The position numbers were made by a program, and so were the translations under genes. A stretch of 64,000 nt of DNA from Gammaproteobacteria bacterium (GTDB taxonomy: Bacteria > Gemmatimonadota > Gemmatimonadetes > Longimicrobiales > Gaopeijiaceae): the NCBI GenBank assembly GCA_028821195.1, contig JAPPHB010000020.1, forward strand, positions 1-64,000, written 5' to 3'. Below the pieces are notes generated by a model. The model was not told where the DNA came from, ran no database searches, and saw nothing but the letters and a program-made list of their open reading frames with translations. Position 1 is the first letter of the stretch. Each line of letters opens with the position of its first letter. This document shows positions 21,348 through 42,642 of the stretch, piece by piece.

Positions 21348-22244
21348 ATGACCGGCGGGAGCATCTCCCGGACGCAGGCCTGGGTGATGGCCTGCAGGCC
21401 CCGCACCCTCACCGCCACCATCGCGCCGGTCGCCGCCGGCACGGGGCTGGCGCACATGCACGGCGGCTTCGCGCTCCTGCCCGCGCTGGCCGCGCTGGCC
21501 GCGGCCGTGCTGATCCAGGTCGGCACCAACCTGGCCAACGACTACTACGACTACCAGAAGGGGGGAGACAGCGAGGGACGGCTGGGTCCCGTGCGCGTCA
21601 CCCAGGCCGGGCTGATCGAAGGGAGGGACGTGCTGCGGGGGGCCTTTCTGGCGTTCGCGCTCGCCACGGGGGCGGGGGTCTTCCTGGCCCTGGCGGCGGG
21701 GTGGCCGGTGGTAGCCATCGGGGTGGCCAGCATCGCCGCGGGGATCGCGTACACTGCGGGCCCCTGGCCGCTGGCGTATCACGGGCTGGGCGATCTCTTC
21801 GTGTTCGTCTTCTTCGGCCTGGTGGCGGTCGCGGGGACCTGCTACGTGCAGATGCTGGAGTTCCGCCCCGATTCCCTGACCGCCGGCGTCGCCCTGGGAG
21901 CCTCCAGCACGGCGATTCTGGCAGTGAACAACCTTCGCGACATCCAGACCGACGCGCGCGCGGGAAAGCGCACCCTGGCGGTGCGCATCGGGCGCGGGTG
22001 GACGAAGGTGCAGTACGTGCTGCTGGTGGTGTTGACCGCGGCCGTCCCACCCGCGGGGATGGCGCTGCACGGCTGGAGCCCCTGGGCTCTGGTCTCCCTT
22101 TGCGCACTTCCGGCGGTGGCGGGGCCGCTGAGGCTGGTGCTTGGCCACCGCGAGCCGGCCGTGCTCAACCGCGCACTGGCCGGGACGGCGCGCTTCGTGG
22201 GGCTCTTCGGGCTCCTGCTTGGACTTGGGTTCGCGCTGGGGTGA
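21348..22244 (+). CDS. menA: 1,4-dihydroxy-2-naphthoate polyprenyltransferase
   Basis: The 298-aa UbiA-family membrane enzyme attaches the polyprenyl tail to DHNA. It has the first Asp-rich motif NDYYDYQKGGD, the second motif NNLRDIQTDARAGKRTLAVR, and about eight hydrophobic spans. It lies 10 bp after menB. The N-terminal block ACRPRTLTATIAPVAAG is typical of MenA. Confidence 0.92.
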   Translation: MTGGSISRTQAWVMACRPRTLTATIAPVAAGTGLAHMHGGFALLPALAALAAAVLIQVGTNLANDYYDYQKGGDSEGRLGPVRVTQAGLIEGRDVLRGAFLAFALATGAGVFLALAAGWPVVAIGVASIAAGIAYTAGPWPLAYHGLGDLFVFVFFGLVAVAGTCYVQMLEFRPDSLTAGVALGASSTAILAVNNLRDIQTDARAGKRTLAVRIGRGWTKVQYVLLVVLTAAVPPAGMALHGWSPWALVSLCALPAVAGPLRLVLGHREPAVLNRALAGTARFVGLFGLLLGLGFALG

Positions 22245-22269
22245 CCAGCGGCGGGGCGATGGTGCGCGC

Positions 22270-23790
22270 GTGATCGAGCGCCCGGTGCAGGATGTGGTCG
22301 CCGCGGGCGCCCGGGCGCATCCGGGCCGGATCGCGGTCGACGATGGCGGTGCGCGGCTGAGCTACCGTGACCTGGACGCGGCGGCCGACCGTCTGGCCCG
22401 GCGCCTGGTGACGCTCGGCGTAAAGCCGGGGGATGCGGTCGCGATGCTGGCGTCCGCCGGCCCCGGGGCGGTGGCGGCCATGTATGCGGCGCCGCGGGCG
22501 GGAGCCGCGCTCGCCCCGCTCAGCCCGGCGCTGGCACGCCGGGAGATGGCGGATGCCTCCGCCGTCGCGCGGCCGGCAGTCGTGTTGTGCGATCCGGCTC
22601 ATCTGGAGTTGGCGCGCGATTTGGTCGGGGCGCTAGCTGGGGGAAGGGAGCTCCGGGTGTTCTCACTTCAGAGCCGCGAGGTCCCGCCGGGCGTCCGGCG
22701 GCCCGGCGCCGGCCATCCCGCGCCGGACGACATCCGCCGGGTGATCCCCTGCGACGAGCCCCTCCCCGGGTCGGCCCCGGATGACGTGGTCGCCATCCTG
22801 CGCACCTCGGGCACCGGGGGGCGGGCGCGCGCGGTCACACTCACCCGGCGCAACTTCCGCACCAGCGCTCGCGCCGTGCGCGCCCGCCTGGAGTTGGGAC
22901 CCGACGACGCCTGGTACGCCTCCCTGTCGCTCGCCCACATCGGCGGGATGGCGCTGGTCGACCGGGCGCTGGCGGCCGGCAGCCGAGTGGTGACGCGCGG
23001 CGAATGGCGGCTCGAGGAGTTGGTCGAGCTGCTCGGGGCCGGTGCCGTCAGCCATGTCTCCCTGGTGCCCACCATGCTCAGCCGCCTGCTGGACGCCGGC
23101 CTCCGCCACCCGCTCCCCGCCTCTCTGCGGTGCGTGCTGGTGGGCGGCGCGGGCGCCCCACCCGACCTGGTGGAACGCGCGCTATCCGCCGGGCTGCCGC
23201 TGGCCCTCACCTACGGGATGACGGAAGCCTGCTCGCAGGTGACGACCGCCCCGCCCGCCCTGGTGCGCGCCAAGCCCGGCGCCGCCGGCGCCCCCCTCGA
23301 CGGCGTCGAGGTCCGCATCGCGGGCGACGGCGAGATCGAGGTGCGCGGCGACATGGTGGCGCGCGCGTACCACCGGGGTGGTCCCATCGCCGGTCCGCAT
23401 GGCTGGCATCGCACCGGCGACCTGGGCCGCCTGGACCACGACGGCCACCTGTGGGTCACCGGCCGCAAGGTCCGCCGCATCGTGAGCGGAGGAGTCAATG
23501 TCCACCCCGCCGAAATCGAACGGGTGCTCGCCGCGCACCCTGCGGTGGCGGAGGCGGCGGTTGTGGGACTGCCCGACCCCGAGTGGGGAGAAAGGGTGAC
23601 GGCCGCGATCGTCCCCGCCGTTGCGCGCGAGCTGCGCGTCCAGGCGATCCACCGGCATTGCCGGGAACTGCTCGGCCCCGCCGCCCGCCCGCGCGCCCTG
23701 GTGGTGCTCGCCGAGCTTCCACGCAACCCGAACGGCAAGATCGACCGCGCCCGCCTCGCCGCCCGGCTTTCCGGCACGACGCCCCCGTGA
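22270..23790 (+). CDS. menE: O-succinylbenzoate-CoA ligase
   Basis: The 506-aa AMP-forming acyl-CoA ligase is assigned to MenE by context. I choose GTG 22270 because the downstream sequence begins the acyl-ligase N-terminus (AHPGRIAVDDG). The P-loop reads RTSGTGGRARAVTLT, with the usual TTGxPK altered, so the conserved Lys is displaced. TYGMTEACSQ, HRTGDLGRLDHDGHLWVTGR and the catalytic lysine region NPNGKIDRARL are present. It is the last gene of the men operon, 25 bp after menA. Confidence 0.85.
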   Translation: MIERPVQDVVAAGARAHPGRIAVDDGGARLSYRDLDAAADRLARRLVTLGVKPGDAVAMLASAGPGAVAAMYAAPRAGAALAPLSPALARREMADASAVARPAVVLCDPAHLELARDLVGALAGGRELRVFSLQSREVPPGVRRPGAGHPAPDDIRRVIPCDEPLPGSAPDDVVAILRTSGTGGRARAVTLTRRNFRTSARAVRARLELGPDDAWYASLSLAHIGGMALVDRALAAGSRVVTRGEWRLEELVELLGAGAVSHVSLVPTMLSRLLDAGLRHPLPASLRCVLVGGAGAPPDLVERALSAGLPLALTYGMTEACSQVTTAPPALVRAKPGAAGAPLDGVEVRIAGDGEIEVRGDMVARAYHRGGPIAGPHGWHRTGDLGRLDHDGHLWVTGRKVRRIVSGGVNVHPAEIERVLAAHPAVAEAAVVGLPDPEWGERVTAAIVPAVARELRVQAIHRHCRELLGPAARPRALVVLAELPRNPNGKIDRARLAARLSGTTPP

Positions 23791-28784: not shown

Positions 28785-29009
28785 ATGTCTACGACTGAAG
28801 CACGCCTCCGCGCCCTCATCGACGAGCACCTGGATCTGGACCACGAACCGGACTTTGATTTGGCGTTCGGCGAAGCCGGTGTTTCTTCTCTGGACTGCGT
28901 CGCCTTCGTGAAGCTGGTGGCCAGCGAATTCGGCGTCGAGATTCCCCCCGAGGAGTGGATGGGCATCGGATCTCTGCGCGGCCTGGCCGCTCGCATCGAC
29001 GCCATCTGA
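28785..29009 (+). CDS. Stand-alone acyl carrier protein
   Basis: The 74-aa acidic four-helix protein has the ACP attachment motif as AGVSSLDCVAF; the phosphopantetheine serine would be Ser35, and the canonical Asp before it (DSL) is Ser34. It is not the usual fatty-acid AcpP: the flanks differ and no fab genes are near. It has its own promoter and is followed 89 bp later by an alpha/beta hydrolase. The nearby PKS ends without a carrier domain, so a trans-acting role is possible but unproven. Confidence 0.8.
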   Translation: MSTTEARLRALIDEHLDLDHEPDFDLAFGEAGVSSLDCVAFVKLVASEFGVEIPPEEWMGIGSLRGLAARIDAI

Positions 29010-29098: not shown

Positions 29099-30043
29099 AT
29101 GAACCGGGCAGCCAGATGGGAGATCCCCGAGCCGCGCTCCGTGCACGAGGTTCGTCAGGACGACGGCAGCGTCACGATTCTGCGCAGGCATGGGAATCCG
29201 GCCGGCCCGCGTCTTCTGCTGGGGCACGGAAACGGGTTGGCCATGGATTTCTACTACCCGTTCTGGTCTCTCCTGAAGGGTGAGTTCGATGTGCTGCTCT
29301 ACGATCTGCGGAACCATGGCTGGAATGCCGTCGGGGCACGCCCGGAGCACAACATGCCCAACCTGGTCCGGGACCAGGAGCGCGTCATCGAAGCAGCGGC
29401 GCGCCGGTACGGGGAACGGCCCACGACCGGGGTCTTTCATTCGCTTTCCGCCCTGACGGCGCTCCTCTCATCCACGCTGGGGATGGGTGGGTGCGACAGG
29501 TTGTCCGCGTGGGTCCTGTTCGATCCACCGCTCTACCGGCCCGGTCCCAAGGACCCGGATTACGACGCGATCGCCGAGGCGGCGGCCGGGATGGCGAGCC
29601 GTCGCGCCGACCAGTTCCGGAAGAGGGAGGACTTCACGGAGCTCCTGAACTTTCTGCCGCTGCTCACCAGGGCGGTTCCGGGAGCCGCGGATCTGATGGC
29701 TCGAACGATTCTGCGCGAGTCCTCCGGGGAAGGGGGCTACGAACTCCGTTGTCCTCGCGAGTACGAGGCGCAGATCATCGCCTACGTGAGGACCTTCGCG
29801 TTCCTCGTGGACTTCGGCAATCTTCCGTGTCCGACGAAGGTGATCGGCTCCGATCCCACGCTTCCGTACGCGTATCTGCCCACCTTCGACCTCAGCCACA
29901 TCGAGACGGTGGACTACGATTTCATTCCGGAGACGACGCACTTCCTACAGGTGGAGAATCCGGCGGATTGCGTCGCGGTGATGCGGGGCTTTCTGGAGGA
30001 GAGCGGGCTGCTCGAGCAGGCTACACGCCCCAGGCGGCAATGA
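29099..30043 (+). CDS. Alpha/beta hydrolase (possible thioesterase)
   Basis: The 314-aa protein has an oxyanion loop LGHGNG, strand YDLRNHGWN, a nucleophile elbow reading FHSLSA (GxSxG relaxed to HSLS), and a catalytic His in PETTHFLQVENP. The acid is probably Asp in GSDPTLP. There is no signal peptide, so it is cytosolic. Placed directly after an ACP gene and near a PKS that has no release domain, it is a candidate editing or release thioesterase. A role in ester or lactone hydrolysis is equally possible. Its 3' end overlaps the convergent DUF1761 gene by 23 bp. Confidence 0.72.
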   Translation: MNRAARWEIPEPRSVHEVRQDDGSVTILRRHGNPAGPRLLLGHGNGLAMDFYYPFWSLLKGEFDVLLYDLRNHGWNAVGARPEHNMPNLVRDQERVIEAAARRYGERPTTGVFHSLSALTALLSSTLGMGGCDRLSAWVLFDPPLYRPGPKDPDYDAIAEAAAGMASRRADQFRKREDFTELLNFLPLLTRAVPGAADLMARTILRESSGEGGYELRCPREYEAQIIAYVRTFAFLVDFGNLPCPTKVIGSDPTLPYAYLPTFDLSHIETVDYDFIPETTHFLQVENPADCVAVMRGFLEESGLLEQATRPRRQ

Positions 30044-30546: not shown

Positions 30547-32310
30547 TCAGCGGGAGTCGCGCGGGGCCTCCACGCGAACCGTGATGATGTCCGTGTCGTG
30601 GTATTGCTGATGGCGAACCGAAGACGCCAGATGGCGGAGCAGGCGCAGCGACACCTCGCGGTCCAGGGAGGCTTCATCGGCGGATTCTCCGAGCAGGCCG
30701 ATCCGGTCCTGCAGGTTTCCGGTCCCGGGGCCGACAACGAACTCGAGCACGGCGCCGCCCTGCTCCCTGCTGGCCGACAGCCGGAGGCGCCGGCGGCCCC
30801 TGGCCCCCTCTCGTCCCGAATCCTCCTCGCGCGCGAGTGTGAGCAGAGCCTCCTCGGCGGCGGCCCCCAGCCGGCCGGCCATCTCTTCGTCCCACCCGCT
30901 GCGGGACGCGAAATCGCCCAGGAACCGGCGGATCGCCGGGAGTTCCGCGCTGCCGGGTCCCGTTTCGATGCGGCTCGGGCGGGGCTCCGTCAGGCGGAGG
31001 AAAAGGGTCATGAGGATGGCGCTGAATCCGCCCGCGTTCATGCCGTTCTCCAGCAGGCCGCCCGCGAACCGGGACGCCTGCTCGGGGAAGATCAGTCCGT
31101 ACTGAAAGCCCGTTCCGGCCAGGAAGGCGATGCCGACGACGAGGCCTTCGCGGTATCCCAGCCCACCCTGCAGCACGATCTTCAGGCCGATCGCGAACAG
31201 CATGGCGAGCAGGATGACCAGGTAGCCGGCGAAGACCGGGTCGGGGATGGCGAGCACGGCGGCGAAGGGCTTGGGCAGGAACGCGAAGGCGACGAAAGCC
31301 GCGCCGGCCACGACCCCGACCGCGCGCGTGGCCACACCGGTGAGCTGGGTCAGGGGGACGCTCGTGGTGGTGGCGCTTCCCGGGACGGTCCCGGCAAACC
31401 CGGTCAGCAGGTTGCCCACGCCGTCCACCGCCATGGCGCCCTGCACGGCGCGGAAGTCGACCGCGCGGCTCCTGCGGCGCCACGAGACGCGCTGGACGGC
31501 CACCGCGCTGCTCATCGTGCGGATCGCGGCGATCACGGCCACCAGCAGGAACGAGGGCAGGAGGGTCCAGAACGCCGGGCCGAAGCCGAGATCCAGCCCG
31601 GGTGCCTGGACGCGCGGAAGATCGACCCAGGAAGCCGCGGCGACGCGCTCCAGGTCGTAGAGGCCATACCCCGCGGCGATAAACGAGCCCAGGACCACGC
31701 CGATCACCGGGGCCCAGAGCCGCAGCGCTCCGCTCGCCTTCAGCGCGAGGCCTCCGATGACGAGCACGGTCACCAGGAAGCTGAGCGGCGCGCCGGGGGG
31801 AGGGCCTGCGCCGGACGAGCCGGACAGGAGGCTCGATATGAACGGCATGACCGTCACCGGGATGAGCATGATCACGGTGCCCGACACCGCTGGTGTCAGG
31901 ACGCGCTGAAAGAGGGAAAGCCGCCAGGAGAGGAGGAGCGGCACCAGTGCGGAGATCGCGACGAGGGTGGCGAGCAGGGCAGGGCCGCCCTGGCCGAGCG
32001 CCATGATGGACGCCGGGATGAACGCCCCGGAGGTGCCCATGACCATCACGTGCCCCATCCCGATGCGCCCCCCGCGCCGCGCCTGCAGGATGGTCGCCAC
32101 GCCGCAGATGGTGACCGACGCGAGCACGGCCCACGAGAGGTATGCGTCCGGCACGCCGGCGGCCCGCATCACCACCATGGGGATCAGCATCACGGCGGCG
32201 ATGTTGAGCACCGCGAGCTGCAGGCCGACCCCGAGCGAGAGCCGGAGCGGGGGCTTCTCGTCGGGCTGGTAGCGAAGCGAGGGTTCGCCGCCGGAACCGT
32301 GGGGGCTCAC
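30547..32310 (-). CDS. NCS2 (solute carrier 23) permease with extra C-terminal ATPase-like domain
   Basis: The start is GTG 32310, whose GTGA overlaps the PKS stop (32307-32309), giving a 587-aa product. Residues 1 to about 455 form a 12-14-span uracil/xanthine-type permease (QLAVLNIAAVMLIPM, MGTSGAFIPASIMA, GTVPGSATTTSVPLTQLTGV as the QNxGxxxxT-like motif region). The last 130 residues are soluble: a helix AAAEEALLTLAREE resembles the N-box of anti-sigma/HATPase domains, then strands and TDIITVRVEA. The ATP-binding glycine boxes are not visible, so that domain may be degenerate. The translational coupling implies a role with the PKS, perhaps export of product or supply of a precursor. Confidence 0.8.
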   Translation of the reverse strand: MSPHGSGGEPSLRYQPDEKPPLRLSLGVGLQLAVLNIAAVMLIPMVVMRAAGVPDAYLSWAVLASVTICGVATILQARRGGRIGMGHVMVMGTSGAFIPASIMALGQGGPALLATLVAISALVPLLLSWRLSLFQRVLTPAVSGTVIMLIPVTVMPFISSLLSGSSGAGPPPGAPLSFLVTVLVIGGLALKASGALRLWAPVIGVVLGSFIAAGYGLYDLERVAAASWVDLPRVQAPGLDLGFGPAFWTLLPSFLLVAVIAAIRTMSSAVAVQRVSWRRRSRAVDFRAVQGAMAVDGVGNLLTGFAGTVPGSATTTSVPLTQLTGVATRAVGVVAGAAFVAFAFLPKPFAAVLAIPDPVFAGYLVILLAMLFAIGLKIVLQGGLGYREGLVVGIAFLAGTGFQYGLIFPEQASRFAGGLLENGMNAGGFSAILMTLFLRLTEPRPSRIETGPGSAELPAIRRFLGDFASRSGWDEEMAGRLGAAAEEALLTLAREEDSGREGARGRRRLRLSASREQGGAVLEFVVGPGTGNLQDRIGLLGESADEASLDREVSLRLLRHLASSVRHQQYHDTDIITVRVEAPRDSR

Positions 32311-35300
32311 CGGGCCGGACCGACCCAGTGGCGCCTGCGCTGGAACGGATAGCCCGGGAGGGAGATCCGGCGGCGCGCCTCCCCGGCGAACAGGCCGGCA
32401 AAGGCAACGGGCAGTCCCGCCTCGTAGGCGCCCGCCACCGACTCCGCGAAGGTCCGGTCGGGCCGGTCGGCCGCATCCGACCATTCGGGCAGCGGGGTGG
32501 GCCCGGGTCCCGGACGCGGACCGATCTCAACGACAAGTTCGGTGTCCAGCCCTGCGAGTGCCCCCGCCAGGGCCCGGTAGGCCGGTGCGCTCGCCTGCCG
32601 GCGCCAGTATGCGCCGTCGAGCGCCTCGTCGGCCGTCAGAACCGTGCCAGTGACCTGGCTGACCATCACGACCTCGGGGCGGGAGAACGACATCCCGGCG
32701 CACGCCGTTTCCAGTTCGGCCAGCGGATCCCGGTCTGCAGCGGAAGGATCATCGACCGGCGCCGCGGCCGCCATCCGCACTTTCGGCCGGGCCATCGCGG
32801 CGCCGCGGGCCGCGGCGAGGCGCAGCCCGTCTTCCAGGGTGAATACGCCCGCTGCCCAGGCGGCCGCCAGCTCGCCGACCCCGTGGCCTGCCACCACCCC
32901 GGGGAGCACGCCCACGCTCGCCCAGAAAGCCGTGCGCGCGCATGCGAGTGCGTAGATGGCCGGCTGGGCCCACTCCGGGTCGTCCAGCCGGCCGGCCGCG
33001 CCCGCCCGCCCGAACATGACGTCGATCAGGGAAGCTCCGCCGCGCTCCGTTCCGAAGACGGCGTCGCATCGATCCAGCAGCGCGCGCACGACGGGTTCGG
33101 CCTGGTACAGATCCTGTCCCATGCCGATCTGCTCGCTCCCCTCGCCGGCGTACACGAACGCGGTCCTGGGGGGTGAGGGGGGCCTGGGCATGCCTTTGGG
33201 CTCGGGCCCCAGGTCGGCGTCGAGCACGCCGTTCAGCCCCTCCCGCAGCGATGCGGCGTCGCGGAAGACCAAGCCGGCCCGGCGCGCGAAGTGGCTGCGC
33301 CCCACGCCGGCCGTCCAGGCCATGTCGGCGAGCAGCGACCGCGCCGTGCCGTCTTCCGCGGAGAGAACCTCCTCCTGCTCGTCAAGCCATGTCAGATACC
33401 GGTGTGCGACTTCCCGCAACGCCGCCGGAGACATCCCGGAAAGGGGCAGGATGCGCGTCTCCCGGGGCGCGAGGTCTCCGCGCGGGGCCGGCACCTCGAC
33501 CGCTCTCCCGGGCGACCCGGTCGGCACGGTGCGCGGGGGCCCGGGGGCCCACAGCGCGTCTGCGAGATCGGCAGCATCCTCCTCGGCGGCACCTTCTTCG
33601 ACAACAACGTGCGCGTTCGTCCCCGAAAGGCCGAAGGAGCTGACGCCCGCGCGCGCCGGCCGATCCGGACGGGAAGGCCAGTCCGTGGGCTCCGAAATGA
33701 CCCGTACCGGAAGCTGGTCCCATTCCAGGTGTGGGGTCGGATTGTCGAAGTGAAGCTGTTTCGGGATGCTGCCCCGGTTCATGGCCAGCACGGCCTTGAT
33801 CAGGCTGGCGACGCCCGCCGCGCATTCCAGGTGGCCGATGTTGGTTTTCACCGAACCGATCAGCAGCGGCCGCTCCGGGCTGCGCTGCCGCCCGTAGACG
33901 GCGGCGGCGGCCTGCACCTCGATCGGGTCGCCCAGATCGGATCCGGCTCCGTGCGCCTCCAGATAGTCCACTTCTCCGGGCTCGATGCCCGCGCGCGCAA
34001 GGGCTTCCTCGATGACCCGCTCCTGAGCCGGCCCGTTCGGGACCGTCAGACCCGCGCTGAAGCCGTTCTGATTGACGGCGGATCCGCGGATCACACCCCA
34101 GATCCGGTCGCCGTCCGCCCGCGCCTCGCTCAGGCGCTTCAGCACGACGACCCCGCAGCCCTCGCCGCGCACGAAGCCGTCGGCCTCGGCGTCGAAGGTG
34201 CTGCAGCGGCCCTTCGTGGACAGCATGCCGACTTCCTTCATGAAGGTTGTGATGTCCGGGGAGAGGATTGCGTTGACCCCGCCGACCAGGGCCATCTCCA
34301 CCTCCCCCTGCCGCAGGGCGGAAGCGGCCTGGTGCACGGCCGCAAGGGAGGACGCGCAGGCCATGTCCAGCGGCACCGCCGGGCCGGTGAGACCCAGCGC
34401 GAAGGAGATGCGCCCGGCCGTCACGCTCATGGTGGTGCCGAGGTACCCGTGGGCCTCCCCGCTGATGGCGGCCACATCTCGATAATCGCCGTTGCCGACC
34501 CCGGCATAGACCCCGGTGTTGCTTCCCGTGAGTTGCCCCGGATCCATCCCCGCGTCCTCGAGCGCGTGCCAGGTCGTCTCCAGCAGCAGGCGCTGCCGCG
34601 GATCCATCATCCGCGCCTCGATCGGCGTGATGCGGAAGAACCTGGCGTCGAACTTGTCGATGTCCTCGAGGAAGGCGCCCCGGCGGGCAGCGCTGTCCGC
34701 GCCGTGCGGATCCCCGGCGACCCCGTTCCAGGGGCCGGGGTCGCGGCGTCCGTCCGTCACCAGGTCGGCGCCGGCCTCGAGCAGGCGCCAGAACGATGCC
34801 AGGTCGGGCGCTCCCGGGAATCGACAGGCCATCCCCACGATCGCGATGGCGTCATCGTCGTCCTGCACGCGGGGCTCGCGCGCAGGCTCGGGTGCGGCTT
34901 CGGAGATGGGAACTCCTCCGCCTTCGACCAGTTCTCCCGCCAGATGCTCGCCGAGCGAGGCGATGTCCGGGTAGTCGAAGACCAGCGTGTTGGGCGCCGT
35001 GTAGGTGCCGGCCAGGGCCCGGTTGAGCCGATTGCGCAGCTCGACGGCCATCAGCGAATCCATCCCCAGGTCGAAGAACCCGACCGTCGCCGCGGGGGCC
35101 GACGGCAGCCGCAGCACGGCCTGAACCTCGCCCTGAAGGAAGGACACCAGCACGTTCCCCCGTTCGCCAGCCGGGGCTTCGCTCACCTGGGTAAGGATGT
35201 CCTTCGGGGCGGCCGCGGAGTCCGCTTCGGCATCCGATGCCGCGGACAGGAGTTCCTCCAGCAGGGGAGGACGCTCTTCCACGGCCTCCTCGAACACCGA

Positions 35301-36935
35301 CCAGTCCATCGCCATCACCACGGACGTCGTCACATCCTGACGCACCAGGCGATCGAATGCCCTGAGTCCCTGCTGCGGCGTGAACCAGCGTCCCCCGAGC
35401 GCGGACCGGCGCCGGTCGATCCGCTCGCGCTGCTCCGCCGCCTCGCCGATCTCCGACCACGCCCCCCAGGCGATCGCCTGTCCGGCGAGTCCCAGCGCGC
35501 GCCGGTGTCCGGCCAGCTGGTCCAGGAAGGCGTTGGCTGCGGCGTGGTTCGCCTGGCCGGGATTGCCCATGACCCCGACCCGGCTCGAGAAGAGGACGAA
35601 CATGTCCAGGTCGCGATTCATGGTCGCGCGATGGAGATGCCACGCACCCAGGATCTTGGGCCCCAGCACCTGTTCGAACCTCTCCCAGGTCTGGTTGGTG
35701 AGAGCGCCGTCCGAGAGCACGCCCACGCTGTGAATCACGCCCGCGAGCGGGGGCAGCCTCCGGTCCATGTCGGCCAGCATCCGGTCCAGCGCAGCCGCAT
35801 CCGCCACATCCGCCAGCCCGACCTCGACCGTCACACCGCGTTCCCTGAGCGCGTGGATAGTCTCCTCGGCGGCGGCGTCCGGCGCGCGGCGCCCGTTGAG
35901 CACGATCGCCCCCGCGCCCCGGTCCGCGAGCCATTCGGCCACGGCGCAACCGATCCCGCCGAGACCGCCGGTGACCAGATAGGTGCCGTGCTGGCGCAGC
36001 CGGCCACCGGATAGCGGGGGCGCGGTCACGACGATCTTCCCGAGGTGCCGGGCGGAGCGCATGAAGCTCAGCGCCGCCCCCGCTTCCGCCAGCGGCCATC
36101 GGCTGTGGACGATCGGTTCGAGTTCTCCCGCGGCAATGCGTGCCATCACATCGCGCAAAACGCGTCCGACCCACTCCGGATCGGTCTTCTTCAGGACGTC
36201 CAGCTCCAGGATGTCGTAGGATACGTCCGGACGGGTCGCCGCCATCTCGTCCTCGGTCAGAATGTCCCGCCGGGCCATCTCCACGAAGCGGCCTCCGTGC
36301 CTCAGACAGGCCAGGCTGGCGTCGATGAAGCCCTCACCGGTAAGGCTGTTCAGCACGACGTCCACCCCGGCGCCGTCCGTCGCCTCGAGGATCTCTTCGC
36401 CGAACGCCGTGGTGCGGCTGTCGAACACGTGCTCGACGCCGAGCGAGCGCAGGTACGCTTGCTTGGGGGCGCTCGCGGTGGCGAAGACCTCCGCGCCCGC
36501 CGCCTGCACCCACTGGATGGCGGCCAGACCCACGCCGCCCGCGCCCGCGTGAATCAGAACCCGCTCGCCGGGCTCGAGCCCGGAGTACTCGAAGGACAGG
36601 GCAGCCGACACGAAGGCGCTGGGGATGGTCGCGAGTCCGGTCTGAGAGATATCCGTCGGAGCCGAAGCCACCAGTTCCTCGTGGGTGATCATCATCGGCC
36701 CGAACGCGCCGAATCCCATCCCGACCACGTGGTCGCCCACCGATACCCGGGACACCTCGGCCCCGACCTCGACGATGCGGCCACACATCTCCCTGCCCAG
36801 CAGCCCTTCCTCGATGAACCCCAGGGAACGGAACACGTCCCAGAAGTTGAGCCCGGCCGCGCCCACGGCGACGCGGACTTCCCTGGGCTCCAGGGGACGG
36901 GCCGGCAGCGGCTGCACGTACGGCCGGTCGAACAC
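32307..36935 (-). CDS. Type I PKS, second frame: ER-KR-ACP-KS-AT(inactive)
   Basis: This 1542-residue frame continues the PKS after a one-base shift. Domains: ER (1-305, NADPH loop IHAGAGGVGLAA); KR (315-495, VTGGLGGIG, LFSSRVGVMG; the usual Tyr is His464); ACP (590-670, GMDSL, Ser627); KS2 (695-1115, Cys860, His995, His1035 all present); AT2 (1259-1535). AT2 has GHGVG instead of GHSVG (Gly1352), and about 60 residues including the AFHS histidine are missing. The frame ends RRRHWVGPAR with no DH, KR, ACP or thioesterase. The GTG start at 36935 is probably not used; it lies at the frameshift. Confidence 0.88.
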   Translation of the reverse strand: MFDRPYVQPLPARPLEPREVRVAVGAAGLNFWDVFRSLGFIEEGLLGREMCGRIVEVGAEVSRVSVGDHVVGMGFGAFGPMMITHEELVASAPTDISQTGLATIPSAFVSAALSFEYSGLEPGERVLIHAGAGGVGLAAIQWVQAAGAEVFATASAPKQAYLRSLGVEHVFDSRTTAFGEEILEATDGAGVDVVLNSLTGEGFIDASLACLRHGGRFVEMARRDILTEDEMAATRPDVSYDILELDVLKKTDPEWVGRVLRDVMARIAAGELEPIVHSRWPLAEAGAALSFMRSARHLGKIVVTAPPLSGGRLRQHGTYLVTGGLGGIGCAVAEWLADRGAGAIVLNGRRAPDAAAEETIHALRERGVTVEVGLADVADAAALDRMLADMDRRLPPLAGVIHSVGVLSDGALTNQTWERFEQVLGPKILGAWHLHRATMNRDLDMFVLFSSRVGVMGNPGQANHAAANAFLDQLAGHRRALGLAGQAIAWGAWSEIGEAAEQRERIDRRRSALGGRWFTPQQGLRAFDRLVRQDVTTSVVMAMDWSVFEEAVEERPPLLEELLSAASDAEADSAAAPKDILTQVSEAPAGERGNVLVSFLQGEVQAVLRLPSAPAATVGFFDLGMDSLMAVELRNRLNRALAGTYTAPNTLVFDYPDIASLGEHLAGELVEGGGVPISEAAPEPAREPRVQDDDDAIAIVGMACRFPGAPDLASFWRLLEAGADLVTDGRRDPGPWNGVAGDPHGADSAARRGAFLEDIDKFDARFFRITPIEARMMDPRQRLLLETTWHALEDAGMDPGQLTGSNTGVYAGVGNGDYRDVAAISGEAHGYLGTTMSVTAGRISFALGLTGPAVPLDMACASSLAAVHQAASALRQGEVEMALVGGVNAILSPDITTFMKEVGMLSTKGRCSTFDAEADGFVRGEGCGVVVLKRLSEARADGDRIWGVIRGSAVNQNGFSAGLTVPNGPAQERVIEEALARAGIEPGEVDYLEAHGAGSDLGDPIEVQAAAAVYGRQRSPERPLLIGSVKTNIGHLECAAGVASLIKAVLAMNRGSIPKQLHFDNPTPHLEWDQLPVRVISEPTDWPSRPDRPARAGVSSFGLSGTNAHVVVEEGAAEEDAADLADALWAPGPPRTVPTGSPGRAVEVPAPRGDLAPRETRILPLSGMSPAALREVAHRYLTWLDEQEEVLSAEDGTARSLLADMAWTAGVGRSHFARRAGLVFRDAASLREGLNGVLDADLGPEPKGMPRPPSPPRTAFVYAGEGSEQIGMGQDLYQAEPVVRALLDRCDAVFGTERGGASLIDVMFGRAGAAGRLDDPEWAQPAIYALACARTAFWASVGVLPGVVAGHGVGELAAAWAAGVFTLEDGLRLAAARGAAMARPKVRMAAAAPVDDPSAADRDPLAELETACAGMSFSRPEVVMVSQVTGTVLTADEALDGAYWRRQASAPAYRALAGALAGLDTELVVEIGPRPGPGPTPLPEWSDAADRPDRTFAESVAGAYEAGLPVAFAGLFAGEARRRISLPGYPFQRRRHWVGPAR

Positions 36936-39900
36936 CCCGCCCGGATTCTGGCGCCAGCACCCAGTCGGGTTCTTCCGGCAGCGCCAGCCGTTCGGCCTCC
37001 GACTCCGCCCGGATCAGGCGAGCGACCCGCCGGCGCCCGAAGCGGTGAATGACGTGGTTCTCGGAGTCGGGATACAGGAGTTCGTTCACGAGGTCGGGTT
37101 CGGGCGCCATCTCTCCCGGATCCAGATCGATCATCCGGGGCTGCAGGTGCGCCGCTTCCCGGGCCACGCCCTTGCCGAAGCCCCAAAGGACCGCGCCGGC
37201 CAGCTCCCCTCCGCGCTCACGCTCCAGCACCTGCGCTCCACGGGTCACGAACCAGATGCCCTTTTCCGGCGTGAGACCGGAGTCGGCCACTCCCTGCGCC
37301 AGGGCCAGGGCGCTCGCGCCCATTCGTTCGACGTCGTCGGCCACGTCGCCGGTCGTCGCGTCCTGACCGGCACCGTCGAGTGCCATCAGGTGCGCGACAC
37401 CGCTGAAGGGTACGTCGTCCGGAAGGCTGTCGATCAGCGATCGCCAGGACTCACGCCGCTGCATCTCGACCGTCGCGGCAAAGACGCCGGGGCCGTTCGG
37501 CTCGGGCAACTCACCCTCCGGTTCGCCGCCGCCGGCCAGTACGACCGTCTGGTTGCGACCCGCGAGGTCGGTTGCCAGCTGCGCCGCCGCGCCCCCCTCG
37601 TCCGCCGCCAGGATCCACGCACCGGGCGGCTCCCGCACCTCGGCGGGCCCCTGCGCCACGATCACGCCCTTGTCGGGGGTCCGGTCCGTGTCGGCTTCGT
37701 CCACCCCGAGCACCTCGACCCCTTCGAAACCGGCGTCGCCCAGCGCGCGTCGCCACACGGCCGGGCTCGCCAGCGCATGATGCGGCCGGTAGTCGTCGGC
37801 GAACCGCCACCAGCCGTCGAGTTGTCCGAATGTGAGGTCCATCCAGCCCAGGCCGCTCAGGTTTTCGAGCGCGACCAGTTGTCCCGAGGGCGCTAGCAGC
37901 CGGCGGCAGTGCCCAAGGGTCTCCTCCAGGTATCGCGTCGCATGCAGGACGTTGGACGCGAGCAAGAGGTCGTAGCCGTGGGCGGCAAACCCTTGCTCGA
38001 CGGGATCCTTTTCGATGTCCAGCGGACGGTACTCGATGCATCCGCCCCCATCTCCGAAACGGGCCTCCGCTTCCGAGAAAAAGCCTGCCGAGATGTCGGT
38101 GTACATGTAGTCGAATCGTCCCTCGGGCAGCAGCGGCAGCACGGAGGCCGTGGCCGAACCCGTGCCCGCCCCGACCTCGACCACCCTCAGGCGGTGTCCT
38201 TCGGGCAGGGCGTCGACGAGTTGCCGGACCGCCTCTTCGAGCAGCCGGTTCGCCGCGCGCGCGACGGGTGCCTTGAGATACAGGTCGGCCGCGGTCGGCT
38301 CTCCGCTGCTGAACAGCAGGGTGAGCGGATCCTCGCGGCCGCGCAGCACCTTTGGGAGGGCTCCGCCCGACCGCCGGAAGAGCCCCACCTCGGTCAGGCC
38401 GTGGGAGTATCGCCGGGCCATCACGGCGGCGTGCGCGTCCGGCTTTGGTGGAAGGACTTCCGGCCACCGATCTTCCGACCCCAGCGCGACGACGAAGCCG
38501 GATCCATCCTCGACCAGCACACCCGACTTGGCGAGCATCTCGAGCATTCGCCGGAATACGCGGCTGTGCTCCGGCATGACGCGGAGTTGCTCCCGCAGGG
38601 TCTCCGGTTCTACGGCCGCGCCCCGGCTTCGCCGCCATCCCAGCGCGTCCAGGGTCGCGAGCGCGTACGACCACGACCAGTGCTCGAGATCGGTCAGCAG
38701 CGCATCCCGATCATCCGGATCGACTCCCGCCTCGATGAGGTGCTCAGAGAAGAGGCGGGAGGCCGATTTCACGGCTGCGGGGCTGGGGAAGAAGTCCGCC
38801 GGGGGCATGCCCGGCGGAAGGGCGCGTTCCCGCCACACGACCTCGTAGAGCAGGTCGTTGACGCCCTCGACCGTCGACAGCAGCGCCGCGCGCGTCGCCC
38901 GCTTCACCGTGTAGCCGCTCAGCCCGCCCAGCAGCCTCCCCTGCGGATCGTAGATGCGCAGCTCACCGGTCAGGACCTCGGGTGTTTCGTCCGCATTCGC
39001 TTCCGCCGCGACGGACGCCTCGCTCAGGCGCACATGGCATACCACCTGGTCGGGCAGGCGTCCCGTCGTCAGCCAGCAACGTTCCCAGCCGAAGGGCAGG
39101 TAGGTGACCGAGCCGTGCGGTCCGGTCAGGTCGCGGGCGGCTCCCACGACCTGAAAGCAGCCGTCCAGGACCAGCGGATGAACGTCCAGCGCGTTCGAGC
39201 CCAGACCTTCCGGAAACGACACCTCGCCCAACGCTTCCCCCGGAGCGGACCACGCCCTGCGCAGCGTGCGGAAGGAAGGGCCGAGCTCGACCCCGGTCCC
39301 TGCCCGGGCGCGGTAGTAGTCCGCGACGTCCATGGGCGAGAGGCGGGCTTTCAGGCTGTCCAGGTCGATCCGCCCGGGGGCCTTCGGCGGAGACCCGTCG
39401 GGTGACACGCGCCCCTCCACGTGCATCGTCCATTTGTCGTCACCGCCCCTGCTGAAGAGCTGGAATCGGCGCGATGCCAGCGGATCGCCGGCGTCCAGCA
39501 CCAGTTGCGTCCGGCGCGCGGCCTCGCCGTTGCCGTCCCCGGAGTGCTCCTCCGTGAACACCAGCGCGTTGTGCAACTGCACGTCCTCCACGGCCGCCGC
39601 CCCGCGTCCCTCGGCGCGGGAGGCCGCCACGGCCATCGCCCCGTACAGCGCGCCCGGCGCCACGACCCGTCCGAAGACCCGGTGATCGTCCAGCCACTCC
39701 GGATCCGAGGGGAACAACTCCGTCTCGAACGTGACCTCGCCGCGCGCCGTCTCGTGCCGCGACCCCAGAAGGGGATGGCCTGCTCCGAGTACCCGCCGTC
39801 TGGGGGCCTCGAGCCAGTGGCGCCTTCGCTGGAACGGATAGCCGGGGACCGCGATCCGCCGCCGGGCTTCCCCCGCGAACAGTCCCTCGAACCCGACCGG

Positions 39901-42642
39901 AAGCCCGGCCTCGTAGGCACCCGCGACCGCCTCCGCGAAGCCCCCGCCATCCCGGGGCGCCTCCGGGTCGTCGGAGGGAGGGCTCAGCGTCGAGACCACC
40001 GCGGGGGCCGGGGTGCCGGGCGACTCCGGCCAGGCCGACAGCGCCATCGGGGCCAGCACCGAGCGTGGTCCGATCTCCACCACCAGATCCACACCCAGCT
40101 CCGCGAGCGATTCCACGCCGCTGGCGAACGCCACGGCCTCGCGCGCGTGACGCGTCCAGTAGGAGCCGTCGAGGGTCTGGCCGGACTCGACCGGCCGGCC
40201 GGTCAGGTTGCTCACCACGGTCAGGAAAGGGGAGGCGACCGCCACGCCCTCCAGGGACTCTCCCAGAGCGGGGAGGATGGGCTCCACCAGGGCGCTGTGG
40301 AACGCCTTCCTGGTGTTCAGGCGCCGTACCCGAATCCCCTCCGCGTCGAAGTTCCTGGAGATGGTTTCGATTTCCTCAACGGGGCCGCTGACCACCTGGT
40401 GGGTGCCGTTGTCGCCGGAGATGCTGAGTCCAACGCCACCGGACACGGCGTTGTGTGCCTGCACGGCTGCCGCCACCCGCGCGGAGGGTGCGAACACCGC
40501 GGCCATGGCCCCGTCGGCCATTCCCGACATCAGCGCGCCGCGCGCACAGGCGAAGCGCATGCCGTCCTCCAGGCTGAACACGCCCGCCGCCTGCGCCGCC
40601 GCCAGTTCGCCGACGCTGTGACCCACCACCACGGCGGGGCGCACTCCCACGCTCGACCAAAGGGCGGTCAGCGCGCACCCCAGCGCGTAGAGCGCCGGCT
40701 GCTCCCAGGCGGTGTCGCCCAGTTCTCCCTCCGACCCGCCACGGCCGAACATGACATCCAGCAGAGAGGCGCCCCTTTCGTCGCGGACCACCGATTCGCA
40801 ACGGTCGAGGACGGCTCGAGCCACGGGCTCCGTCTCGTACAGTGCCCGGCCCATCCCGACCCACTGGCTTCCCTGTCCGGTGTAAGCGAACGCCACCTTT
40901 CCGGCGGCGCCCGGCCCTGGAATGTCCCCGCCTTCCGTCACTGCCTCCAGCTGCCCGCGGAGTGACGCGGCGTCCCGGAACACCACCCCGGCGCGATGAT
41001 CGAAATGGCTGCGCCCCACGCCCGCGGTCCACGCCATGTCCGACAGAAGCGGTTCCGCGTCGGCTCCTTCCATGGCCAGTTGGTCAGCCCGTTCCTTGAG
41101 CCACGACAGATACCGCCCGGCCGATTCCCGCAGCGCGGTCTCCGACTTGCCGGACAGAGGCAGCAAACGCGCCTGGCGCGCCTGCAGGGCTCGGTCGGGC
41201 AACTGCAGATGCCCCAGAGTCGCGGGAAGCGACACCTGGACCGATTGCCGCGACCCCGCCGCCAGGGGACCCCCTTCATCCGCAGCCCCGTTCGCGCCGC
41301 GATACTCCTGAACTACGAGGTGAGCGTTCGTTCCGGAGATGCCGAAGCAATTGACCCCGGCCACCCGCGGGCGGCCCGGACGGTCCGGCCAGTCCATCGT
41401 CTCCGAAGTGATGCGCAGCGGCATGCGATCCCAGTCCACCGCCGGGTTGGGATCGTGGAAATGCAGGTGCTTCGGGATGATGCCTCGCCTGACCACCAGC
41501 GCCGCCTTGATGAGCCCGACGACGCCCGCCGCCGACTCCAGATGGCCTACGTTCGTCTTCACGGAACCGATCAGCAGCGGGTCCCGGGCGTCGCGTCCCC
41601 TGCCGTAGACGCTGGATACGGCGTTCAGCTCGATCGGATCGCCGACCGCGGTTCCCGTCCCATGCGCCTCGACGTAGTCCACCTCCAGCGGATCGACGCC
41701 CGCCTGGAACAATGCGTCCTCCATGACCTGTTCCAGCGCGGGAGTGTTGGGCACGGTGAGCCCGACGCCGGTCCCCCCGTGGTTTACCACCGAGCCCCGG
41801 ATCACCGCCCAGATCCGGTCCCCGTCCGCCTCGGCGTCGCTCAGGCGCTTGAGGACCACGACCCCGCAGCCCTCGGCGCGAACGTAGCCGTTCGCGGAGG
41901 CATCGAAGGTCTTGCACTGCCCATCGGGGGACAGCATCATCGCGTCTGCGCGCAGCTCGTAGATGCGCCCGTTGAGGATGGCCTGCACGCCGCCCGCAAT
42001 GGCGAGATTCGCCTTGCCCTGCTGCAGATCTGCGACCGCGTCGTTGATCGCCACCATCGCGGAGGCGCAGGCGGCGTCCACCGCCTTGGCCGGCCCGGTC
42101 AGCCCGAGCACGAAGGAGACACGCCCGGCGGTCCCGTTCAGGTTCGTCCCGCTCAGCGCGTACAGGCACGCCGCGGCCTCCGCGGGCTTGGCCGAATCGA
42201 CCACCAGCATTCGGTACTCGTCGTTGCTGATCCCGGAGTAGACGCCGGTGCGGCTCTCTTTCAGGCGATCCGGGTCGATGCCCGCGTCTTCAAGCGCCTG
42301 CCAGCTCACCTCCAGCATCATGCGCTGCTGTGGATCGAGGAGCTCGGCCTCTACAGGAGAAATCCGGAAAAAGGCGTCGTCGAACCGGTCGATGTCGTCG
42401 ACGAAGGCGCCGAAGCGGCAGCCCTCGCTCTGGACCGCATTGTCGCCGAAGATCTGGCCCCAGCGCCCCTCCCCGGAACCGGGCACCCCCTCGACCACAG
42501 CGTTTCCGCCGGTCTCCAGCAGGCGCCAGAAGGCTTCGATATCGTTTGCGCCGGGGAACCGGCACGCCATGCCGATGATGGCGATCGGCTCTCCGGATCC
42601 GGACGCAGGCTTGGAGGCTGAATCAGGCCTGGAAGCTGACAT
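36334..42642 (-). CDS. Type I PKS, first frame: KS-AT-DH-cMT-psiKR and start of ER
   Basis: True PKS sequence runs from ATG 42642 to about residue 1904 (36943); the remainder is out-of-frame read-through. Domains: KS (18-445; Cys192, His327, His367); AT (583-945; GHSVG with Ser676, AFHS-type His782); DH (950-1250; His987 in DDHRVFGRVVAP, Asp1160 in VHPLVLDGC); C-methyltransferase (1290-1670; EVGAGTGSAT); structural KR-like domain (1675-1880). The AT lacks a clear specificity call by eye. With the next frame this makes a fully reducing, alpha-methylating module, as in iterative fatty-acid-like PKSs. No loading domain precedes KS1. Confidence 0.9.
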   Translation of the reverse strand: MSASRPDSASKPASGSGEPIAIIGMACRFPGANDIEAFWRLLETGGNAVVEGVPGSGEGRWGQIFGDNAVQSEGCRFGAFVDDIDRFDDAFFRISPVEAELLDPQQRMMLEVSWQALEDAGIDPDRLKESRTGVYSGISNDEYRMLVVDSAKPAEAAACLYALSGTNLNGTAGRVSFVLGLTGPAKAVDAACASAMVAINDAVADLQQGKANLAIAGGVQAILNGRIYELRADAMMLSPDGQCKTFDASANGYVRAEGCGVVVLKRLSDAEADGDRIWAVIRGSVVNHGGTGVGLTVPNTPALEQVMEDALFQAGVDPLEVDYVEAHGTGTAVGDPIELNAVSSVYGRGRDARDPLLIGSVKTNVGHLESAAGVVGLIKAALVVRRGIIPKHLHFHDPNPAVDWDRMPLRITSETMDWPDRPGRPRVAGVNCFGISGTNAHLVVQEYRGANGAADEGGPLAAGSRQSVQVSLPATLGHLQLPDRALQARQARLLPLSGKSETALRESAGRYLSWLKERADQLAMEGADAEPLLSDMAWTAGVGRSHFDHRAGVVFRDAASLRGQLEAVTEGGDIPGPGAAGKVAFAYTGQGSQWVGMGRALYETEPVARAVLDRCESVVRDERGASLLDVMFGRGGSEGELGDTAWEQPALYALGCALTALWSSVGVRPAVVVGHSVGELAAAQAAGVFSLEDGMRFACARGALMSGMADGAMAAVFAPSARVAAAVQAHNAVSGGVGLSISGDNGTHQVVSGPVEEIETISRNFDAEGIRVRRLNTRKAFHSALVEPILPALGESLEGVAVASPFLTVVSNLTGRPVESGQTLDGSYWTRHAREAVAFASGVESLAELGVDLVVEIGPRSVLAPMALSAWPESPGTPAPAVVSTLSPPSDDPEAPRDGGGFAEAVAGAYEAGLPVGFEGLFAGEARRRIAVPGYPFQRRRHWLEAPRRRVLGAGHPLLGSRHETARGEVTFETELFPSDPEWLDDHRVFGRVVAPGALYGAMAVAASRAEGRGAAAVEDVQLHNALVFTEEHSGDGNGEAARRTQLVLDAGDPLASRRFQLFSRGGDDKWTMHVEGRVSPDGSPPKAPGRIDLDSLKARLSPMDVADYYRARAGTGVELGPSFRTLRRAWSAPGEALGEVSFPEGLGSNALDVHPLVLDGCFQVVGAARDLTGPHGSVTYLPFGWERCWLTTGRLPDQVVCHVRLSEASVAAEANADETPEVLTGELRIYDPQGRLLGGLSGYTVKRATRAALLSTVEGVNDLLYEVVWRERALPPGMPPADFFPSPAAVKSASRLFSEHLIEAGVDPDDRDALLTDLEHWSWSYALATLDALGWRRSRGAAVEPETLREQLRVMPEHSRVFRRMLEMLAKSGVLVEDGSGFVVALGSEDRWPEVLPPKPDAHAAVMARRYSHGLTEVGLFRRSGGALPKVLRGREDPLTLLFSSGEPTAADLYLKAPVARAANRLLEEAVRQLVDALPEGHRLRVVEVGAGTGSATASVLPLLPEGRFDYMYTDISAGFFSEAEARFGDGGGCIEYRPLDIEKDPVEQGFAAHGYDLLLASNVLHATRYLEETLGHCRRLLAPSGQLVALENLSGLGWMDLTFGQLDGWWRFADDYRPHHALASPAVWRRALGDAGFEGVEVLGVDEADTDRTPDKGVIVAQGPAEVREPPGAWILAADEGGAAAQLATDLAGRNQTVVLAGGGEPEGELPEPNGPGVFAATVEMQRRESWRSLIDSLPDDVPFSGVAHLMALDGAGQDATTGDVADDVERMGASALALAQGVADSGLTPEKGIWFVTRGAQVLERERGGELAGAVLWGFGKGVAREAAHLQPRMIDLDPGEMAPEPDLVNELLYPDSENHVIHRFGRRRVARLIRAESEAERLALPEEPDWVLAPESGRGVRPAVRAAAAGPSPGAQGSPRRRGRGRAQLLGRVPFPGVHRGRAAGQGDVWPHRRGRGRGVPGIGGRPRGRDGIRRVRADDDHPRGTGGFGSDGYLSDRTRDHPQRLRVGCPVLRVLRARARRAGSDSRGRGRRGSGRHPVGAGGGRGGLRHRERPQASVPALARRRARVRQPHHGVRRRDPRGDGRRRGGRRAEQPYR
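36935..36942 (-). other. Frameshift site in the PKS
   Basis: The coding strand reads GGGCGGGG here. Removing one G turns E-S-G-R-G-V-R-P (first frame) into E-S-G-G-V-F-D-R-P-Y and joins the psiKR end to the ER start seamlessly, giving one protein of about 3,440 residues. Homopolymer miscount in assembly is the simplest cause; a real mutation or slippage is possible. Confidence 0.8.

Follow-up and report, generated by a model that had tools for sequence, protein, structure and literature searches.

A type I polyketide synthase (PKS) gene was found to end in a truncated second module that is conserved across its orthologues, with a ketosynthase (KS2) under constraint, a dead acyltransferase (AT2), and a dedicated free-standing acyl carrier protein (ACP) and an alpha/beta-hydrolase that co-occur with the PKS. 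The gene lies in the window, the 64,000-nucleotide stretch of DNA that we analysed (G000:C111:1-64000), which belongs to a 4.2-Mb genome in 140 contigs. The reading that we favour, with slightly better than even confidence, is that of a sup-type cassette in which an iterative methylating module 1 would be followed by a KS2-AT2 pair for docking and acyl transfer to the discrete ACP, with the hydrolase acting afterwards.

The PKS occupies positions 42642-32307 of the minus strand, with the domain order KS-AT-DH-cMT-psiKR-ER-KR-ACP-KS-AT (Table 1). Pfam identified KS, AT, DH and methyltransferase domains in a first open reading frame (ORF) and ER, KR, PP-binding (ACP) and KS domains in a second, where AT is matched over half its length (positions 2-161 of 319). 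These results agree with the order given in an earlier, sequence-only reading of this DNA, except for the pseudo-KR, which was assigned from the sequence by inspection. Among the matches listed for the two PKS pieces (the best 25 of 28 and the best 25 of 149), no NCBIfam family scored above its cut-off. The sequence-only reading had also treated the PKS as a continuous gene, overlooking a switch of frame in the ER near 36.94 kb: the window holds two PKS ORFs, one in the frame 42642-36334 and the other in the frame from ~37010 to 32307, which appear to be a single gene split by a frame break. The gene is indeed continuous in a close relative, as the PKS at locus L028, whose DNA is 94.3% identical to the window copy, is one ORF; the break is therefore local to the window copy. 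It may be real or an assembly error, and the sequence is compatible with either. Frame breaks or in-frame stops inside the contig were present at 6 out of 36 PKS loci (the window at ~36.94 kb, L027, L046, L056, L058 and L060). Among supA amplicons, frameshifts have been reported in 15.4%, and that study could not decide whether they are real (PMC4245539).

Table 1. Features of the PKS cassette in the window (positions in the window)
Feature	Position	Strand	Basis
PKS first reading frame	36943..42642	-	Pfam and motifs
KS1	~42591-41302	-	Pfam, motifs
AT1	~40899-39979	-	Pfam, motifs
DH	~39777-38881	-	Pfam, motifs
cMT	~38235-37708	-	Pfam, motifs
Pseudo-KR	~37650-36943	-	Read by inspection only, no Pfam match
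PKS frame break, approximate place, start of ER	36930..36960	-	L028 open there
PKS second reading frame	32307..36935	-	Pfam and motifs
ER	~36935-36006	-	Pfam
KR	~35987-35451	-	Pfam
ACP (PP-binding; ACP1)	~35138-34941	-	Pfam
KS2, Cys, Lys and both His present	33585..34853	-	Motifs, family dN/dS about as low as KS1
AT2, GHGVG without catalytic Ser, without the stretch of AT1's catalytic His; ends at post-AT linker	32331..33158	-	Pfam, motifs, L028 AT1/AT2 alignment
PKS stop TGA	32307-32309	-	
NCS2-type permease, 587 aa from overlapping GTG, SupE-like	30547..32310	-	Pfam Xan_ur_permease above cut-off
Alpha/beta-hydrolase of 314 aa with an invariant His-Ser nucleophile motif	29099..30043	+	Pfam Abhydrolase_6
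Free-standing ACP of 74 aa with an invariant phosphopantetheine Ser	28785..29009	+	Pfam PP-binding

The truncated state proved to be a shared feature of the family. One scan of genome contigs returned 36 loci, of which L062 is a different PKS, leaving 35 orthologues; 22 of these carry the gene as one stop-to-stop ORF of 3,376-3,623 aa (the ORF of L043, at the edge of its locus, is without the first ~20 residues). We aligned 41 rows, 8 of which fall short of the C-terminus, and all 33 of the C-termini that could be compared, some of them near-copies, end within ~20 residues of the post-AT linker without a second ACP. The sequence-only reading had pointed out that homologues with a complete second module and an unlinked permease would mean that the window copy is simply damaged. 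None of the 33 C-termini has a complete second module, so damage does not account for the truncation; the PKS studied here has neither an active AT2 nor a cis ACP after KS2. In a KS tree of 74 rows, for which the program warned of long branches, chiefly in outgroup rows, KS1 (28 rows) and KS2 (37 rows) each formed one group (100/99), and the two groups were sisters. This pattern indicates a single KS-AT duplication before the family spread.

The two domains of the truncated module differ in what they have kept, and the description "dead KS-AT" in the sequence-only reading applies to one of them. Judged by their residues, AT2 is dead, with Gly for the catalytic Ser and the His stretch missing, and KS2 is alive, with Cys, Lys and both His retained. 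The catalytic Ser is present in 28 out of 28 AT1 rows and in 0 out of 34 AT2 rows that cover the site, and the Cys, Lys and second His of KS2 are each kept in 37 out of 37 rows. At L028, AT2 has 266 residues compared with 349 in AT1, and the stretch with the catalytic His is gone from it. We also assembled a wider KS2 set of 75 rows (66 different) and dropped L046, L053 and L056, which had matched KS1. In the remaining 72 rows, some of them near-copies, the Cys is kept throughout (72/72) and the HGTGT-type His is His in 57, Asn in 12 and Gln in 3. Loss of this His requires at least three changes on the tree, which still included L046, L053 and L056. It is needed for decarboxylative condensation (PMC4661987). 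The window KS2 retains it and so departs from the pattern of a non-elongating KS0, in which the His is lost and the Cys kept. Among the 70 rows that cover the AT2 site, the residue is Gly in 67, Asp in one, Asn in one and Ser in one, and an intact GHSxG occurs in none (0/70); the sole Ser row, L135, is without the motif His, and Gly stands at this site in L110 and L136, both closely related to it.

Median dN/dS values, from 14 hand-chosen pairs, were 0.064 for the methyltransferase, 0.078 for KS1, 0.093 for KS2, 0.097 for KR, 0.179 for AT1, 0.209 for DH and 0.302 for AT2. Thus, KS2 is constrained like the working domains, and AT2 is retained but relaxed. The KS2 median was 0.170 in Asn-bearing lineages (nine pairs from three groups; the comparison covers the Asn groups, with the Gln group outside it) versus 0.105 in His-bearing lineages (ten pairs), so purifying selection persists in the Asn lineages and is somewhat weaker than with His. 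AlphaFold modelled KS2-AT2 as a KS-AT didomain with middling confidence (pLDDT 69), and the folds nearest to the model include the CurL, GfsA and DEBS didomains; the model contributed little beyond the sequence evidence. We considered and rejected a programmed or recoded TAG in AT2: the stops of L111 and L112, two sequences 99.9% identical to each other, and that of L108 lie at different places, and the TAGs flagged in G145 and G261 are absent inside the aligned gene.

Beside the PKS, we found an alpha/beta-hydrolase at 30 out of 36 loci, the window included. At five of the loci without one (L029, L044, L046, L048 and L053), the PKS stands at or close to the contig end; at L045, the right flank is present and the hydrolase is absent from that flank. 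A small ACP was present at 27 of the 30 hydrolase-holding loci; its profile was built from 15 of those loci, which match by construction. The genomes of the three loci where no ACP lies at the PKS (L036, L039 and L054) hold one elsewhere. When searched with this profile, all 12 SupA-bearing genomes tested gave an ACP match above 85 bits, compared with neither of two control genomes, where the only match, at 46-48 bits, is probably the housekeeping ACP. Pfam recognised PP-binding in the ACPs of the window and L031, Abhydrolase_6 in the hydrolases of the window and L036, and ACPS in two phosphopantetheinyl transferases (PPTases). The phosphopantetheine Ser is invariant across 19 aligned ACPs, as are the His-Ser motif, the Asp residues and a late His across 21 aligned hydrolases. 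Ten loci include a PPTase; the surroundings of the window's PKS yielded none. The L031 gene order is PKS, ACP, PPTase, hydrolase, permease. Because a dedicated free ACP was found, KS2 probably works with a partner in trans, as the sequence-only reading had suggested.

Several other neighbours and copies were noted. An AMP-binding (acyl-CoA synthetase-like) enzyme lies at 22132-23787 of the window, ~8.5 kb from the PKS end, and a related ORF lies at a similar distance from the PKS at L047. The neighbouring ORFs located at 43.0-44.2 kb and at 25.8-27.1 kb drew no Pfam match. The window genome holds another, less closely related member of the hydrolase family (L137; G000:C74:84364-85254), with no cassette-type ACP, permease or PPTase in the 10 kb around it, and additional copies of this family occur in many SupA-bearing genomes. 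L110 (G141:C2) carries a tandem SupA pair, of which the first is truncated at the start of the contig; after each copy, a separate hydrolase and ACP lie on the opposite strand.

We then compared gene content across a sample of 395 genomes of the window's phylum, which we took to be Gemmatimonadota because its congeners group by rpoB with loci carrying that label. A KS2-AT2 profile (E <= 1e-200) matched 44 out of 395 genomes, which we counted as 43 SupA-bearing genomes after leaving out G019, whose weaker match (734 bits) lies in a different PKS; these 43 fall in 5 of the 138 genera sampled. We take codes such as RHO, COS, IRC and SB06xx to denote sponge projects. A hydrolase profile (E <= 1e-60), run on what we took from the identical handles to be the same draw of genomes, matched 42 out of 395 genomes, all of them among the 43 SupA-bearing genomes, and none of the 352 others. 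The remaining SupA-bearing genome, G431, gave no hydrolase match; G034 and G119, from genera shared with SupA-bearing genomes, have neither SupA nor the hydrolase. In 36 out of 42 genomes, the hydrolase and the PKS share a contig and lie no more than 20 kb apart; the count is 37 out of 42 with G002, whose hydrolase contig carries the PKS end. The hydrolase lies apart from the PKS in G139, G142, G170, G240 and G261. In the first four of these, it adjoins an ACP of the family (a partial match of 64 bits in G240), though far from or off the contig of the main PKS match, and some genomes with the hydrolase apart have a further ACP beside the PKS. Since the SupA-bearing genomes fall in five genera, the counts are not independent events, and the co-occurrence is confounded by descent as well as by linkage (37/42). 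The PKS gene is not a binning artefact in G139, because that genome is a single 4.09-Mb contig, with an ORF of 3,421 aa.

The stop codon of the PKS overlaps the GTG start of the permease (32308-32310) as GTGA, so the overlap described in the sequence-only reading is present in the DNA at 32307-32310. Such an overlap (GTGA, ATGA or TTGA) recurs in 6 out of 12 relatives (L027, L028, L030, L041, L047 and L058) and is missing from the other six (L031, L032, L033, L037, L054 and L057). By hand count among the matches listed, at least 36 of the 43 SupA-bearing genomes have a permease of this family near the PKS. The single-contig genome G139 has two permeases among the matches listed, both unlinked to the PKS. 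Coupling of the PKS to the permease is thus not strict. The idea of a PKS-specific permease is weakened by the spread of the family, which occurs in 48 out of 395 genomes, at three or more copies in some (among the matches listed), and in six genomes without SupA. Matches of the permease to the NCBIfam ncs2 and pbuX models fell below the cut-offs. Its C-terminal tail is conserved and weakly HATPase-like (HATPase_c_2, E 0.028, in the L028 homologue). The view of the sequence-only reading that a truncated second module with a coupled transporter may be undescribed is not supported as regards the transporter: the A. aerophoba clone pAPKS18 was earlier reported to carry a permease, SupE (ABE03914; PMC3908369, Table 1).

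Hosts of the cassette belong to seven phyla by rpoB tree and record titles: Gemmatimonadota, Latescibacterota, Chloroflexota, Rhodothermota, Acidobacteriota, Nitrospirota and Pseudomonadota. Rhodothermota and Acidobacteriota are represented by one genome each, with the PKS cut by the contig end, and several other host contigs measure 189-645 kb. The rpoB tree covers 29 of the 30 genomes tried (L059 gave no match; the window's own rpoB was left out). It overrules record titles that seem to give the wrong phylum or none, placing L027, L028 and L047 in Gemmatimonadota and L057 in Latescibacterota. Both SupA and rpoB identities were available for 14 pairs. For L028 compared with five groups from four further phyla, identity was higher for SupA (0.63-0.68) than for rpoB (0.50-0.58), whereas within a genus (L028 and L047) it was lower for SupA (0.81) than for rpoB (0.94). 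The SupA of G003, G006 and G009, three genomes of the window's genus, is only 64-65% identical to that of the window. In three counter-cases (L043-L050, L040-L034 and L037-L057), rpoB is more alike than SupA, as descent predicts. As SupA is mostly closer between phyla than rpoB, the comparison points to horizontal transfer of the cassette between phyla.

In the mechanism that we propose, module 1 would work iteratively with malonyl units, C-methylation and full reduction, and the acyl chain that it builds on its own ACP would be saturated and methyl-branched. AT1 carries GHSxG in 28 out of 28 rows and AFH in 25 out of 28 (LGAH in two and PAYH in one), motifs that point to malonyl-CoA and so suggest its use in most orthologues. 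A saturated, C-methylated chain would be expected from the methyltransferase, full reduction and malonyl use together. We infer the iteration from the presence of only one complete module; the sequence-only reading had proposed an iterative methyl-branching module, and its sup-like, methylating and fully reducing character is borne out. The Cys of KS2 would take the chain from ACP1 and hand it to the discrete ACP encoded nearby, AT2 would serve as a scaffold only, and the hydrolase would act on either the free ACP or the synthase, in chain release or proof-reading. We favour chain transfer by KS2 because the condensation His has been lost on at least three branches under purifying selection. 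A precedent is the ChlB3/ChlB2 system of chlorothricin biosynthesis, in which the finished chain of an iterative type I PKS is moved by a KS-fold enzyme onto a discrete ACP (PMC9573744). It is possible, and we put it forward tentatively, that a duplicated KS-AT lost loading and, in some lineages, condensing, so becoming a built-in hand-off to a discrete ACP, and that the PKS-ACP-hydrolase set moved between seven phyla as a shared lipid cassette.

Against a hand-off stands the retention of the condensation His in 57 out of 72 KS2 rows, the window included. These rows have the Cys-His-His set expected of a KS2 that truly condenses, in which case AT1 or the FabD of the host would load malonate onto the free ACP, KS2 would perform one last extension and the hydrolase would release the beta-keto acyl-ACP product. 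A split module with a trans ACP would have the same look, and condensation by the window KS2 is possible because its His is kept. We nevertheless consider a condensing KS2 unlikely, given the change of His to Asn or Gln on at least three branches, with the Asn groups still under purifying selection, and the lack of an intact GHSxG in AT2 in all 70 covering rows. KS2-AT2 might instead be structural or a chain-length gate, holding the dimer or parking the chain and returning it to ACP1, with the free ACP serving otherwise. The AT2 core and post-AT linker, kept without the Ser, would suit such a role, as KS-AT didomains are dimeric. We regard it as improbable; a purely structural role would leave unexplained both the invariant Cys, Lys and second His of KS2 and the co-occurrence of ACP and hydrolase with the PKS, although a parking gate is harder to exclude. 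That the second module is merely damaged could be argued from the frame break in the window copy, the stops in AT2 at L027, L111 and L112 and the stop in KS2 at L108. Damage is nonetheless very improbable, as all 33 C-termini share an end point at the linker, KS2 has a dN/dS of 0.093, and the sister clades of KS1 and KS2 make the truncated state older than the spread of the family.

Genes of the sup type prevail in sponge PKS surveys, and what is said of their chemistry consists of proposals; a paper of 2014 described the organism behind them as unresolved (PMC4245539). The present data assign a sup-like cassette to whole genomes, including a single-contig one, and give evidence of its transfer across phyla. 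Candidate partners of the truncated module are the free ACP and the hydrolase, which make product release directly testable.

The cassette fits the sup group by shared features, SupA and SupE having been compared by description rather than by alignment. We filed it there because SupE is a permease and the permease comes fifth in the L031 order, as the letter E would suggest. SupA is reportedly a single complete type I module with a methyltransferase and full reduction; the PKS studied here likewise has a single complete methylating, fully reducing module, and its cluster holds a permease of the SupE kind (by family). The names supB-D probably go back to Fieseler 2007 or Hochmuth 2010. The sup enzymes, type I PKSs proposed to make methyl-branched fatty acids, are described as small and monomodular in the accessible literature. 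Their genes were amplified with DPQQ and HGTGT primers (PMC4245539, PMC3908369), and KS1 carries DPQQR in 28 out of 28 rows and HGTGT in 28 out of 28. Our literature search, which covered parts of the sources, found no statement of the SupA domain order or of a KS2 with a trans ACP, and one may still exist.

Like sup, SwfA of the swf group is a mono-modular sponge-symbiont type I PKS/FAS, but its order, KS-AT-DH-ER-KR-ACP, is without the methyltransferase and the terminal KS-AT, and its KS motifs differ: the window PKS has DPQQR, HGTGT, KAFH and a methyltransferase, and SwfA has DPQ(I/V)R, HATGT, IAFH and no methyltransferase. One swf cluster has a permease nearby that is 44% identical to SupE (PMC3908369, Table 1). 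Outside the window, the ORF at G000:C111:96907-104274 (L064/L065) encodes another PKS, 2,456 aa long, with the published SwfA motifs DPQIR, HATGT, IAFH and GHSSGE; by eye, the start of a reductase-like ORF follows it. Thus, sup-like and swf-like genes share one 105-kb contig. Unlike the candidate transfer KS here, which is of type I and fused to the PKS, ChlB3 is a stand-alone protein that resembles KSIII and has Cys-His-Asp. In the KS0 domains of trans-AT and algal PKSs, the condensation His is lost, as it is here in some lineages only. The algal terminal KS0 sits before a hydrolase-like domain (PMC4661987). Its Cys position is shifted; in the protein studied here, AT1 is intact in cis. Mycocerosic acid synthase and Pks13 combine iterative methyl-branched lipid synthesis with a separate release step, as we propose here; mycocerosic acid synthase uses methylmalonate and has one module, and Pks13 has its own ACPs and a thioesterase in cis.
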